From Lysobacterales bacterium (GTDB taxonomy: Bacteria > Pseudomonadota > Gammaproteobacteria > Xanthomonadales > Xanthomonadaceae): a stretch of DNA of 64,000 bases. The position numbers and the translations under genes are program-made. Every line of letters begins with the position of its first letter. Within the stretch, counting starts at the first letter, position 1. This document shows, one piece after another, positions 50,660 to 55,029 of the stretch. The stretch spans positions 124,001 through 188,000 of the forward strand of contig JAEKKX010000008.1 of NCBI GenBank assembly GCA_019510125.1, written 5' to 3'. The notes under the pieces were generated by a model, which worked only from the letters and a program-made list of their open reading frames with translations, made no database searches and was not told the DNA's origin.

Positions 50660-51712
50660 TCACTCGGCGACGACCGAGCCGCTGCGCGGATAGATGCGGT
50701 AGTTGCGGGCCGTGCCGTTGTTGCGGACCCGGATCTCGTCGCCGGCCACGCCGTCGAGGTTGGCGTAGTTCAGCAGCGACCACCAGGTGCCGAACGTGCC
50801 GGAGCCGTTGATGTACTGCACGGTGCCGGTGCGCGGGTAGACGATGTTGATGTTGCCGTCGCTGCGTGCGACCGCGATCTCGTTGCCGGTGGTGCCGTCG
50901 AACTGGCGCACGCCGTCGTTGAGGATCGCGTACTGGGCGTTGATGATGTAGTTGCTCATCGACCCGGTGACGTAGCTGTAGACGCTGATGTAGTTGGGCA
51001 GGATCAGGATCAGTTCGGCGCCGGGGCTGCCGTTGAGGTCGCTGACGCAGTTGGGGATGCCCGGATCGTTGCAGATCGCCCAGCTTCCGCTGCTCACCGG
51101 CGTGCTGCTCATGCTGCGCGTGCGGTAGTTGTAGACGCGCAACGCGGAGCCGTTGGCGATCGGGATCTCGGCGCCGGGCTGGCCGTCGAGGTCCTTGATG
51201 CCGTAGACCGCGATGGCGTAGGTGCCGGACATCGGCTGCGAGCTGGTGCTGCGCGCCCGATGGTCGACGATCTTCAGGGAATCCGACGCCACGATCACGA
51301 TCTCGTTGCCGGCGACGCCGTTGAGGTCGGTGATGCCGCCGGGCGATGCGGCCCACGAGCCGGTGCTGATCTGGTAGTTGTAGCTGCTGCGCGAATTGTG
51401 GTTGATCACCATCAGCGCGCCGCCGATGTTGATCGGGATCTCGGCGCCAGGGGTGCCGTCGAGGTCCTGCACGCTCGTGAAGTTGCCGTACAGCAGGGCC
51501 CACGAGCCGCCGCTGACCTGGTAGTTGTAGCTGCTGCCGTTGGTGCTCTTGACGGTGATGTACGAGCCGTTGTTGTAGACGGTTTCGGCGATGCCGTCGC
51601 CGTCGAGGTCTGCGCTGCCCATCAGGACGCCCTGTGCGGACGCGGCGCCAGGCAGCCATGCGCCGGCCACGCAGGCCAGCGAGAACAGCAGTGCGCGGAA
51701 TGAACGTGTCAT
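50660..51712 (-). CDS. Secreted protein with seven FG-GAP-like (Asp-rich) repeats
   Basis: A 350-residue precursor with a signal peptide ending PGAASAQG. Seven spaced copies of an Asp-rich motif follow: DLDGDGIAET, DLDGTPGAEI, DLNGVAGNEI, DLDGQPGAEI, DLNGSPGAEL, QFDGTTGNEI and NLDGVAGDEI, about 45-50 residues apart. The DxDGxxxxE pattern resembles calcium-binding FG-GAP/VCBS blades of a beta-propeller. Between them lie Ser/Tyr-rich strands with SYNYQVSGGSW. Likely an exported or surface protein; binding partner unknown. No neighbour suggests a pathway. Confidence 0.8.
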   Translation of the reverse strand: MTRSFRALLFSLACVAGAWLPGAASAQGVLMGSADLDGDGIAETVYNNGSYITVKSTNGSSYNYQVSGGSWALLYGNFTSVQDLDGTPGAEIPINIGGALMVINHNSRSSYNYQISTGSWAASPGGITDLNGVAGNEIVIVASDSLKIVDHRARSTSSQPMSGTYAIAVYGIKDLDGQPGAEIPIANGSALRVYNYRTRSMSSTPVSSGSWAICNDPGIPNCVSDLNGSPGAELILILPNYISVYSYVTGSMSNYIINAQYAILNDGVRQFDGTTGNEIAVARSDGNINIVYPRTGTVQYINGSGTFGTWWSLLNYANLDGVAGDEIRVRNNGTARNYRIYPRSGSVVAE

Positions 51713-51983
51713 GGGGTGCTCTCCTTGAGCGGGTGTCGATGCGCCGGACCGGCGCATTCGTCCGTGACGAAGCGGACGCGGGCTTCCCGCGGTCGGCGAT
51801 GCGGGTCGTGGCGGGTTTCCGACGAACGGGTCGCGGTTTGCGCGCCTCGTCACATTCCCGCCGGCGCCGCCGGCCACGTCGCGCGGCCATCCGCCGCACG
51901 ACCGCGTCGCAAGCCTGATTCGCAGCGTCGATGGGATCGGCGGGAATGAACGACGCGGTCGCGCGCGCAGGCGACGCTGCGGA

Positions 51984-52529
51984 TCACTCGGCGTAGGCGT
52001 ACACGAAGTACAGGTGCATCACGCCCAGCGCCGCCAGCAGGCAGCCGGCGCAGATGTGCAGGGCGGTGGTCCACTGGCCCCAGGTGCCCAGCCGCTTCGC
52101 CGGCAGCAGGTTGAGCAGCGCGCCGGCGGCCACCACCAGCATGGTCACGGCGAACGTCGCGTGCAGGAAGCCGGCATGGGCGAACCCGGCGTGCATCACC
52201 AGCAGCACGAGCATGGTCAGGCCGAGGAAGCGATGCGCCAGTTGCAGCGCGCGCTGCGCGCCGCCGCCGATCAGCCGGCGCTTGATCAGGGCCAGCGAGA
52301 GATCGAAGGACAGCAGGCCGACCAGGCAGTAGCCGGTCACCTGCTTGTAGGCGTGCAGGCGCTGCAGCGCGACCAGCGATTCCACCCGCGGGCCCCACAG
52401 CCACGCGATGCACGCGATCGAGACGCCGCACAGCGCGGTCCACGAGGCGACGACCAGCGCCGTCTGGTACGCGCTGCGCGGGGCCTTGGGCCGCGTCGCG
52501 AGGGCCGGGCTGTCCGTGGTCGCGTTCAT
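51984..52529 (-). CDS. Cytochrome b-like membrane protein
   Basis: A 181-residue protein with four to five hydrophobic helices. Histidines in and near the helices (AYKQ preceded by LHAY, HRFLGLTML, MHAGFAHAGFLH, ALHICAG, MHLYF) suit b-type heme ligation, as in cytochrome b561 or ferric-reductase-like domains. It is the last gene of the redox operon and its start overlaps the end of the DUF3365 gene by ATGA. It probably passes electrons in the inner membrane; quinone or other acceptor unknown. Confidence 0.75.
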   Translation of the reverse strand: MNATTDSPALATRPKAPRSAYQTALVVASWTALCGVSIACIAWLWGPRVESLVALQRLHAYKQVTGYCLVGLLSFDLSLALIKRRLIGGGAQRALQLAHRFLGLTMLVLLVMHAGFAHAGFLHATFAVTMLVVAAGALLNLLPAKRLGTWGQWTTALHICAGCLLAALGVMHLYFVYAYAE

Positions 52530-53446
52530 GGCGCGCTGCCCGACTTGCCGGGCGCGGCCGCGCCGTCCTGCGCGCGCTTGTCGCCGCCGCCGCGCGCGCC
52601 CGCGAGTTCGCGTCGGGCCGGGGCGCGCAGGTCGAGCAGCAGGTTGAGCGAGGCGATCGAATTCTGGGCTTCGACCCGGTCGCGGAAGGTGCCGGCATCG
52701 GGGACGAACAGGCCGTCCTTCGGCCACTGCGGGCCGACCTTCGGCCGTTCCTTGTCGTCGAAGCCGGCGGTCTTCTTCAGGTAGGCGTCGTAGGCGTCCA
52801 GCGCCGAGGCGCGGTAGGCGGCGAGGATCGCGATCACTTCGTCGGTCGAGAGCTTGTCGCGCGGGAACGACCAGGTCGTGGCGCCCATCACGTCGTTCTG
52901 CTTCCAGTCCTTGCGCGGACTCTTCGGATGGTCGTTGTGGCAGGTCACGCAGGCCGGCGCCGAGGCGATGTCGGCGAACATCGCGGTCTGCCGGCCGGTG
53001 CTGGCGTCGAGGAAGAACTTCGGCTGGCGATCCTTCTCGATCTGCTCGAAGTAGGTCTGCTGCGCGCCCTTGAACTTGTTGGTGACCTCGATCGGGTAAC
53101 TCGAACCCAGGAACAGGCTCAGCTCGGGGACGCGCTGCTGCAGGCGGTTGGCGGTCTCGCGCAGCAGCAGCGCGGGCAGCGGGCCGGCATGCACGTCCTT
53201 CCGCTTCCAGTCCTCGTGGAACCTGAGGCCGGCCTTCTGCCCCGGGGTCACGATTTCCGCGGTGTAGATCTTGCGGATCGACGCGTTCTCGGCGTTGAGC
53301 AGGCGGAACAGCGTCTCGACCGGCACGTCGCGCGCACCGACGCTGTCCTCGTCGAGGTCGGCCGGCGCGGTCGCGAACAGATAGATGCCGACGACCGCCA
53401 GTGCGGCCAGCGCGATCGCGGAACGGGGAATCCTGGTGAGCGTCAT
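52526..53446 (-). CDS. DUF3365-type (Tll0287-like) monoheme protein
   Basis: A 306-residue protein with an N-terminal hydrophobic anchor (residues ~9-26) and a periplasmic domain that ends in a single c-type heme motif CVTCH (Cys166, Cys169, His170) followed by NDHPKSPRKDWKQNDVMGA, the DUF3365 signature region. The C-terminal ~80 residues add an alpha-helical tail. The frame overlaps the membrane gene by ATGA and the upstream fusion gene by ATGA. Likely a sensor or electron-transfer heme protein on the periplasmic side. Confidence 0.8.
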   Translation of the reverse strand: MTLTRIPRSAIALAALAVVGIYLFATAPADLDEDSVGARDVPVETLFRLLNAENASIRKIYTAEIVTPGQKAGLRFHEDWKRKDVHAGPLPALLLRETANRLQQRVPELSLFLGSSYPIEVTNKFKGAQQTYFEQIEKDRQPKFFLDASTGRQTAMFADIASAPACVTCHNDHPKSPRKDWKQNDVMGATTWSFPRDKLSTDEVIAILAAYRASALDAYDAYLKKTAGFDDKERPKVGPQWPKDGLFVPDAGTFRDRVEAQNSIASLNLLLDLRAPARRELAGARGGGDKRAQDGAAAPGKSGSAP

Positions 53447-55029
53447 GGCGAATCCTCCGGAGTCCTGGCCTTCACCACGCGTTCGCCGTAGGGCGAGGCC
53501 CCGGTGCCGAGATACGCCTGGATGGCCTCGGGCGGGATCGCGTCCTCCAGGTCGCGGGGCGGGGTGTGGTGATGGTTGCCGTGGAAGTCGTGGCAGCCCA
53601 GGCACGTGTCCCAGCGCTTGTCGCGGATCAGCGCCGCGTGCGTGGGCCGGGTCGGGTCGTCCTTGACCTGGGTGTCGGCATGGCAGCTCGCGCAGAAGCG
53701 CGCGTCGGTGCGGCTGATGCGCGTGCCGGTATGCTCGCGATGGCAGCTCACGCACTGCTGCGGCGCGAGCGCGCGCCGGGCCGCTTCGAAGCGCGGCTCC
53801 AGGAACCGGTGCGCGGGGTGGCGGTCGTCGGGATTGTCGTGGCAGCCGATGCAGGTGGCGTTGTCGACCGCGCGCTTGCCGAATTCGGCGCCGTCCGGGC
53901 GCAGGCCGAGCAGGTGCTTGGTCTTCGCCTGCAACTGCTGGCGGAGCGTGCCCGGCGCCTCGCGGTGGCAGTCGGCGCATTCGAGCTTGTCGTGGCCCGG
54001 ATTGTGCGCGTCGTTCGGCACGAAGGTCGCCAGCGCCGGCGCGAGCAGCAGCAGCGGCGCGAAGGCCGCGGCCAGGCCCGCGGCGTAGGCCAGCCGGCGG
54101 ATGCTGCGCGGCGGCCGCACTTTCGATTTGAGGAAGAACGCCTCGACCCGCACGTCCGCATCCGGCACGCCGGCCTTGCGCAGGCCCTCGACCACGTTGC
54201 GGGTGTAGGCCTCGGGTCCGCAGACGTAGAAGCGCGCGCCGGGGAACAGCGACACGGTGTCGGCGATGTCCTCGTCGTCGATGTAGCCGTCGACGTCGTC
54301 GGCGCGCAGGTGGCAACTGATCTCGCCGCTGCTGGCGGCGGAGGATTCGATCCTGTCGGCGTAGACCATGTCGCCGCGATAGGCCGCGCTGTAGTCGATG
54401 TGCAGGCCCTGCCCGGGCTGCCGGCCGCTGAGCAGCGACAGCGCGAGGGTCACGCCGACGCCGGCGACGAACGCGACCACGGTGCGTCCGTCCGCGGGGT
54501 CGGCCTGGCCGGCGGGCGCCGCGATGCGCATCGGGATCGCGGCGAAGATCGTCTCGTCGGCGTCGAGCAGGCGGGTGGTCAGCTCGCCGTAGGGCAGGCG
54601 GCGCATCGCGATGCCGACCCGGTTGCCGTCCCCGGACTGGTCGACGATCGTGTAGGTCCGGGTCACCCACTCGTCGTCGATCCACGCCTGCAGCACCACG
54701 TGCTGCGCGGGACGCGCCTTCGGATAGGGCGGATAGCCGGCGAGCTGCAGGTCGAGCTGCACGATGTTCCGCTGCGGGAACCGGCCGTCGGTGAGCACGG
54801 TGCGGGTCGCGTTCGCCACTTCGTACCATGGCGATTCGCCGAGCATTTCCTGCAGCAGCGGGCGGCAGCAGCCGCAGTGCACGCCGCAGCCGAGCTGGCT
54901 GCCGAGGGATTCCAGCGTCGACGCCGGCGCGGTGGCGATGGCGGCCTTGATCCGCGCCCGGCCGACGCCGGCGCAATGGCAGACGAGATCGTCCTGATCG
55001 GTGCCCTCTCGTTTCGGTAGTGCGTCCAT
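53443..55029 (-). CDS. BFD [2Fe-2S] + FNR-type reductase + transmembrane + pentaheme c fusion
   Basis: A 528-residue fusion. A BFD-like [2Fe-2S] domain uses Cys17/Cys19 and Cys52/Cys55. An FNR-type domain (~75-305) has the flavin motif TRTYTIV, an NAD(P)-loop-like VAFVAGVGVTLALSLL and the FYVCGPEAY motif. A basic run (RPPRSIRR) precedes one helix (~313-336), giving an N-in topology, and five CxxCH motifs at 351, 393, 426, 446 and 476 bind periplasmic hemes. It should move electrons from cytoplasmic NAD(P)H (or the reverse) to periplasmic c-type hemes. It is the first gene of a three-gene operon. Confidence 0.87.
   Translation of the reverse strand: MDALPKREGTDQDDLVCHCAGVGRARIKAAIATAPASTLESLGSQLGCGVHCGCCRPLLQEMLGESPWYEVANATRTVLTDGRFPQRNIVQLDLQLAGYPPYPKARPAQHVVLQAWIDDEWVTRTYTIVDQSGDGNRVGIAMRRLPYGELTTRLLDADETIFAAIPMRIAAPAGQADPADGRTVVAFVAGVGVTLALSLLSGRQPGQGLHIDYSAAYRGDMVYADRIESSAASSGEISCHLRADDVDGYIDDEDIADTVSLFPGARFYVCGPEAYTRNVVEGLRKAGVPDADVRVEAFFLKSKVRPPRSIRRLAYAAGLAAAFAPLLLLAPALATFVPNDAHNPGHDKLECADCHREAPGTLRQQLQAKTKHLLGLRPDGAEFGKRAVDNATCIGCHDNPDDRHPAHRFLEPRFEAARRALAPQQCVSCHREHTGTRISRTDARFCASCHADTQVKDDPTRPTHAALIRDKRWDTCLGCHDFHGNHHHTPPRDLEDAIPPEAIQAYLGTGASPYGERVVKARTPEDSP

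Follow-up and report, generated by a model that had tools for sequence, protein, structure and literature searches.

The window analysed here, a 64,000-nucleotide stretch of a Lysobacterales bacterium (assembly GCA_019510125.1, contig JAEKKX010000008.1, positions 124,001 to 188,000 of the forward strand), carries on its minus strand a three-gene operon, A-B-C, that probably serves as a membrane conduit through which NAD(P)H in the cytoplasm reduces hemes on the periplasmic side. Gene A (53443..55029) encodes a 528-amino-acid protein in which a BFD-type [2Fe-2S] domain, an FNR-type reductase, one membrane helix, and a pentaheme cytochrome c follow one another; gene B (52526..53446) encodes a Tll0287-like (sCache_heme, DUF3365) monoheme cytochrome c of 306 amino acids; and gene C (51984..52529) encodes a predicted diheme b membrane protein of 181 amino acids. 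The coupling of the three genes through ATGA overlaps, proposed in an earlier sequence-only reading of this DNA, was found at both junctions (53443..53446 for A/B and 52526..52529 for B/C, both on the minus strand). The case for a conduit is built on the domains, the invariant histidine pairs of C, topology signs (charge and hydropathy), the linkage of the genes, and the occurrence of FNR fused to C in some genomes and to the pentaheme in others. As a type, the system is likely to be an FRD-like conduit that takes electrons from NAD(P)H across the membrane to an outlet of multiheme and heme-Cache proteins, for which no name was encountered in any paper found in the open-access literature.

The arrangement of BFD domain, FNR, helix, and five CxxCH motifs in one reading frame was confirmed by Pfam, by motifs, and by hydropathy. 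The BFD-like domain spans residues 15-64 (54838..54987, minus strand; PF04324, 36 bits against a cut-off of 26), and its cysteines are kept in all nine genus rows that cover this part, the window included (the row of L019 is cut before it). The FNR-type FAD/NAD(P) reductase follows at approximately residues 72-300 (54130..54816, minus) with RTYT at 124, GVGVT at 190, and CGP at 270; GVGVTL fits five of the six positions of the motif with which it was compared, and the RTYT, GVG[VI]T, and CGP motifs recur in all 10 genus rows, such that the flavin and nucleotide motifs are kept; a lack of the corresponding binding residues had been named as a possible refutation. The best solved relatives of this part are flavohemoglobin Hmp (E 2.5e-5), and the NCBIfam flavohemoprotein (residues 101-298, E 5.6e-11) and PaaE reductase (residues 106-301, E 2.8e-9) models match it far under their full-length cut-offs; NAD_binding_1 was not listed in the Pfam scan of gene A. 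Hydropathy gives two peaks, one at residue 193, inside the NAD-binding GVGVT stretch and taken as a buried strand, and one at residue 328, preceded by the basic KSKVRPPRSIRR and taken as the membrane helix (approximately residues 318-338; 54016..54078, minus), the presumed cytoplasmic side of which is thus basic. The five heme motifs start at residues 351, 393, 426, 446, and 476 (approximately residues 343-490; 53560..54003, minus), and three Pfam c3-type or CxxCH models score above cut-off in gene A. The pentaheme part has a mean column identity of 48% (35 rows). Its weak matches are to octaheme nitrite reductase, the best match of its profile among solved structures (E 0.0037), and to the models of NrfB and DmsE; no full-length family model for it was seen in NCBIfam or Pfam. 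ActA of alternative complex III is likewise a pentaheme with one helix; it was considered for the heme part and set aside, as no ActB/ActC-like neighbours were seen by eye, although no ActA profile was run.

The BFD-FNR-pentaheme fusion is real and is neither a chance product nor a frameshift. Each of the 10 further genomes sampled from the genus contains a match to gene A (that of G006, at a contig edge, covers the protein only from residue 78 onward), and dN/dS values of 0.27-0.33 over the whole gene and 0.18-0.39 across its individual parts, each in comparison with three relatives, place every part under purifying selection. The idea that assembly or annotation wrongly merged two genes (the sequence-only reading had pointed to the danger of an assembly frameshift) could appeal to the fact that related pentahemes are mostly separate proteins (65 of the 80 loci described below); nevertheless, presence in close relatives contradicts it, as does selection on all parts of the gene, and it can safely be dismissed. 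At E<=1e-20, gene A is unmatched in 24 genomes from the family's other genera and in 24 from the order. One genus member, G009 (L012; 62% identity, genome 75% complete), carries a TAA within its gene A match, attributable to decay or to an assembly error.

Gene C, described in the sequence-only reading simply as histidine-rich, proved to have been undersold: the description is true, and four histidines, forming two H-x13-H pairs (H99-x13-H113 and H158-x13-H172 in the window), are invariant in all 69 aligned rows of the family. Neither Pfam nor NCBIfam yields a match to window C up to E 1, and no solved structure is matched by window C or by the C profile; a C profile built from 18 rows, with the window and its genus excluded, nonetheless finds window C at 42.6 bits. 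Ferric_reduct (PF01794) weakly matches 23 of the 69 family members at E<=0.01 (best 6.3e-6), window C not among them, and the other Pfam matches of the family are stray and weak (DUF4405 in one of 69). Hydropathy, by which alone the helices were assigned (with segment borders set by hand), gives five peaks; the family means of lysine plus arginine are 1.90, 4.19, and 2.17 in the predicted inner parts (N-terminus, loop 2-3, and loop 4-5, respectively) and 0.89 and 0.13 in the predicted outer loops 1-2 and 3-4. This charge distribution would therefore place the histidine pairs on helices 3 and 5, with one inner and one outer heme. Gene C thus represents an unnamed family that, judged from these features, most likely provides the transmembrane step as a diheme b protein. 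The conduit of the earlier reading is accordingly upheld with an amendment, in that the lone helix of A cannot carry electrons across the membrane by itself, and C most likely does so.

The assignment of gene B as a DUF3365 monoheme protein also held: it matches the Tll0287-like profile PF11845 at 33.9 bits (cut-off 24.1) and contains a single CxxCH (CVTCH, residues 166-170), no other cysteine, and an N-terminus that is hydrophobic by eye. The motif is present in 77 of 77 B rows (counts that leave out the short B of L030 and L060), and 30 rows share 31 invariant columns, of which 28 fall outside CxxCH. A tree of 54 rows gathers B into a single clade (100/99, with the bootstrap not settled), distinct from ordinary stand-alone Tll0287 rows and likewise from eight longer rows of signalling type. 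At one alignment column, 20 of 20 ordinary stand-alone proteins have cysteine and 26 of 26 B rows have a gap; cysteine is also absent between residue 30 and CxxCH in 73 of 77 B rows. If that column is the axial cysteine, as seems to be the case, B would lack this ligand and may therefore bind a small ligand. In the sections of PMC12889525 available, a signalling member without axial cysteine binds nitric oxide (NO) tightly, and a stand-alone member with axial cysteine releases NO fast, as does its Cys-to-Ala variant; loss of the cysteine alone thus need not create an NO site, and those sections do not treat a Cys-less stand-alone protein such as B. Among solved structures, the best E is 0.22 for B alone, and the B profile finds only glutamate receptors (best E 0.2).

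Although the exact BFD-FNR-pentaheme fusion is seen only in Lysobacteraceae, the operon itself is widespread. Scanning GTDB contigs identified 229 related places; the 80 best were retained as loci, many of them in metagenome-assembled genomes. The pentaheme part is present in all 80 (five CxxCH in frame in 79, three in L083), a B-type match lies within 78, and a C-type match within 76, mostly adjoining the pentaheme; three of the four loci without C stop at a contig edge (L021, L060, and L079), and the fourth, L033, has no intact C. The conserved gene neighbourhood proposed earlier as a check on the operon thus extends across phyla, with Lysobacteraceae, Methylococcaceae, Bacteroidota, Kofleriaceae and other Myxococcota, Methylomirabilota, Chloroflexota, Planctomycetota, Gemmatimonadetes, and Sulfurovum among the titles of the loci. 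A fusion of FNR to the pentaheme occurs in 15 of the 80 (nine Lysobacteraceae and six others), and a separate FNR match lies at most 5 kb away in 38.

The input module is the variable part of the system and takes the form of BFD-FNR, FNR-Fer2, cyclic nucleotide (cNMP)-BFD-FNR, or none nearby. By Pfam, the Bacteroidota fusions L036 and L057 have a Fer2 cluster after FNR, replacing BFD, and L056 and L084 have two cNMP-binding domains ahead of BFD-FNR. FNR and C are joined in one frame in L041 (where the FNR match is split over two frames), L051, L056, L068, L084, and L093, the last of which is the same place as L143 and encodes a 465-amino-acid BFD-FNR-C protein followed by the pentaheme and then B. 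In L056 (866-3409) and L084 (4822-7401), the two cNMP-binding domains, BFD, FNR, and a C-type diheme b domain form a single protein, possibly a cNMP-controlled NAD(P)H conduit. Within the class, the C profile is matched in 11 of 274 genomes, that of the window included, and seven of those 11, all gammaproteobacterial (L139-L142 and L144-L146), have another architecture: in 7/7 loci, a flavoprotein of 640-693 amino acids ending in C is followed by a decaheme and then by a B-type protein, with a monoheme c in some loci as well. Pfam finds Pyr_redox_2 and BFD in both of the parallel flavoproteins scanned. Taking both architectures together, two flavoprotein types therefore seem to feed the same C-multiheme-B chain.

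Given this architecture, the following route is proposed, the loading of cofactors, the order of electrons, the formation of a complex, and the terminal substrate all being conjectural. A, B, and C would form a single membrane complex. NAD(P)H would be oxidised at the FAD of the FNR part of A, and the [2Fe-2S] cluster of BFD would relay electrons one at a time to C, where they would enter at the inner heme b (H99/H158). From the outer heme b of C (H113/H172) they would go on to the five hemes c of A and then to the monoheme of B. As the outlet, B might either reduce a small ligand or retain it, NO being the leading candidate.

Several known systems resemble this scheme in part. The NOX/SpNOX enzymes and the ferric reductase domain superfamily likewise pass electrons from NAD(P)H to FAD, to two hemes b bound by histidine pairs on helices 3 and 5, and on to an outer acceptor; as described in PMC5676040, NOX has two His-x12/14-His motifs on transmembrane helices 3 and 5, six transmembrane helices, and a C-terminal FAD/NADPH region with H(PSA)F[TS][LIMV]. 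The histidine pairs of C lie on helices 3 and 5 by hydropathy, with a spacing of x13 in 69 of 69 rows. Nevertheless, C has five predicted helices rather than six, and the window flavin motif is RTYTI, situated on gene A (in the C fusion of L093, FNR is N-terminal); C is not filed as NOX because of these differences in helix number and flavin motif. A-B-C further departs from NOX in its [2Fe-2S] cluster and in having multiheme and Cache-heme acceptors in place of oxygen. MsrPQ with Fre offers a similar combination of a separate cytoplasmic flavin reductase, a diheme b membrane protein, and a periplasmic acceptor, whereas in A-B-C the reductase is linked or fused and the acceptor is a pentaheme plus a Tll0287-like heme protein; no MsrP-like partner was seen among the scanned window neighbours or by eye near the core, although no MsrP-specific search was made. 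PepSY, DUF4405, and FezC are, as C is predicted to be, small membrane proteins with conserved histidines and heme b involved in extracytosolic electron transfer; unlike C, they are tied to flavinylated proteins (PMC11334425). B shares its domain, CxxCH, and stand-alone form with the sCache_heme proteins of PMC12889525 and differs in its apparent lack of an axial cysteine, its own clade, and its tie to a conduit. DmsE/MtrA, NrfB, and NrfH have c3-type heme motifs as the pentaheme does, but in the window an NAD(P)H module is fused to the latter. Hmp, finally, shares the FNR part, and some loci have a globin partner; gene A, in contrast, has no globin domain, and its electrons appear to exit the cytoplasm.

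The place of NO in this scheme is a guess, a lead rather than a result, and NO chemistry at B is on balance doubtful. Hints come from globins and from a link with nitrate assimilation in certain lineages. A single-domain globin match occurs in 32 of the 80 pentaheme loci, 30 of them within the cluster and nearly all titled Bacteroidota (the other two, L074 and L090, are larger proteins on the other strand, approximately 4 kb from the core), and in five of seven decaheme loci (four PF00042, one PF01152); globins of the two groups are 53% identical in the one pair compared. The family to which the Zobellia locus L046 belongs was sampled at 149 genomes, of which 11 have C and 32 have NasA; NasA is present in 11 of 11 genomes with C, on the same contig as C, and in 21 of the 138 others (Fisher p 9e-9, kinship uncorrected). 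In two Methylomirabilota loci (L028:1-5182 and L037:2-1945), NorB-like genes, that of L028 identified by Pfam, stand with a monoheme c directly upstream of pentaheme-B-C on the same strand, which we take to be a possible link with NO dismutation. A number of results weigh against NO. The NasA sample is centred on, and includes, a genome picked for having the system; no globin was found in the 11 genomes of the window's genus; and globin as a general partner was rejected, since in system genomes chosen for having no globin in the locus it occurs in 5/36, much as in relatives (7/59). Nitrate assimilation as a general role was similarly discarded (NasA 0/11 in the window's genus), as was denitrification, whether via NorB (NorB-like in 8/11 genus genomes versus 12/24 of other family genera) or via NirK (over cut-off in one of six system genomes), neither of which shows an association. 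Replacement of Hmp by the system was rejected as well, Hmp being too rare (3/149 over cut-off, one in a system genome).

The conduit reading must also be weighed against observations that tell against it. The FAD_binding_6 match (PF00970, gene A residues 105-156) scores 20.1, slightly under its cut-off of 21.1 (the same model is over cut-off in L056, L084, L038, L036, and L093); the B profile did not recover a solved Tll0287 structure; the cysteine argument for B relies on a gapped alignment that is not anchored on Tll0287 itself; and in L030 (6738-7310), B and C matches share one 190-amino-acid frame without CxxCH. No FNR was found in the stretch examined in 27 of the 80 loci, so the core can work with another donor. 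These 27 loci also favour a reading in which the core (pentaheme, B, and C) is fundamentally a quinol dehydrogenase: quinol would donate electrons to C, and FNR would be a later addition or run in reverse. MsrQ-like diheme proteins can use quinol, which fits such an origin; the joining of several distinct NAD(P)H modules to C or the pentaheme does not, and the proposal is judged improbable.

Mean column identity in B is 47%, no higher than the 48% of the pentaheme, and this last point against a special role for B is what would be expected if the system were a general power line, with B a mere relay, devoid of chemistry of its own, to soluble cytochromes of the periplasm and to whatever reductase or oxidase is present there. 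A chain of multiheme plus monoheme suits a relay, as do the redox-like verdict on stand-alone Tll0287 proteins in PMC12889525 and neighbours that differ by lineage: cytochrome c biogenesis (by eye) in 15 Aquimarina-type loci, the NorB-like genes and monoheme c of L028 and L037, and an oxidase cluster (by eye) in L084. The many invariant columns of B outside CxxCH and its seeming lack of a cysteine ligand speak, suggestively only, for something more, and the relay is a serious possibility that nonetheless falls short of even chances. Alternatively, the conduit could set the heme state of B, which would act as a redox or NO sensor and signal to some partner. A sensory role is frequent among Tll0287-like domains, and the tight NO binding of the tested Cys-less member belongs here too (PMC12889525); in addition, L056 and L084 have an input module with fused cNMP-binding domains, and CRP-type genes occur in eight loci, the query's own among them. 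Pfam, however, shows no signalling domain in the three proteins of the operon or in the six neighbouring frames of the window that were scanned, B stands apart from the eight signalling-type rows, and an entire NAD(P)H conduit would be a costly sensor; this role is thus improbable to the same degree as quinol oxidation. A further proposal is that the conduit defines a new class of enzyme, a membrane-bound NAD(P)H:periplasmic NO (or other small N-oxide) reductase in which the open-site heme-Cache protein B is catalytic and receives its electrons through an FRD-like diheme b protein and a multiheme wire, the NAD(P)H modules being interchangeable and the cytoplasmic globin of some lineages acting on the same NO. 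Such a class is unlikely, if somewhat less so than a sensor or a quinol dehydrogenase.

As for the surroundings of the operon, a promoter scan found none (0.1 expected), and the two terminator-like sites (1.5 expected) both lie on the opposite strand. Downstream of C, positions 50660-51724 encode a repetitive protein (DLDGDG and NNGSY repeats) without a Pfam match, and a similar repetitive protein clustered from five relatives. Elsewhere, the pentaheme next to the merged B/C frame of L030 is intact, and the merger may reflect decay or an assembly error. In L049, L058, and 13 other Aquimarina-type loci, the cytochrome c biogenesis genes recognised by eye are of the ResB/CcsA kind and recur together with a small monoheme lipoprotein.

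If the conduit reading is correct, bacteria from several phyla would have in common a modular, unnamed wire by which NAD(P)H reduces periplasmic hemes and which may bypass the quinone pool, and NOX-like wiring would be extended to multiheme cytochromes. A role would likewise be provided for a set of stand-alone Tll0287-like proteins, which PMC12889525 leaves as "redox-related." The terminal substrate of such a wire would be testable with three genes in E. coli.

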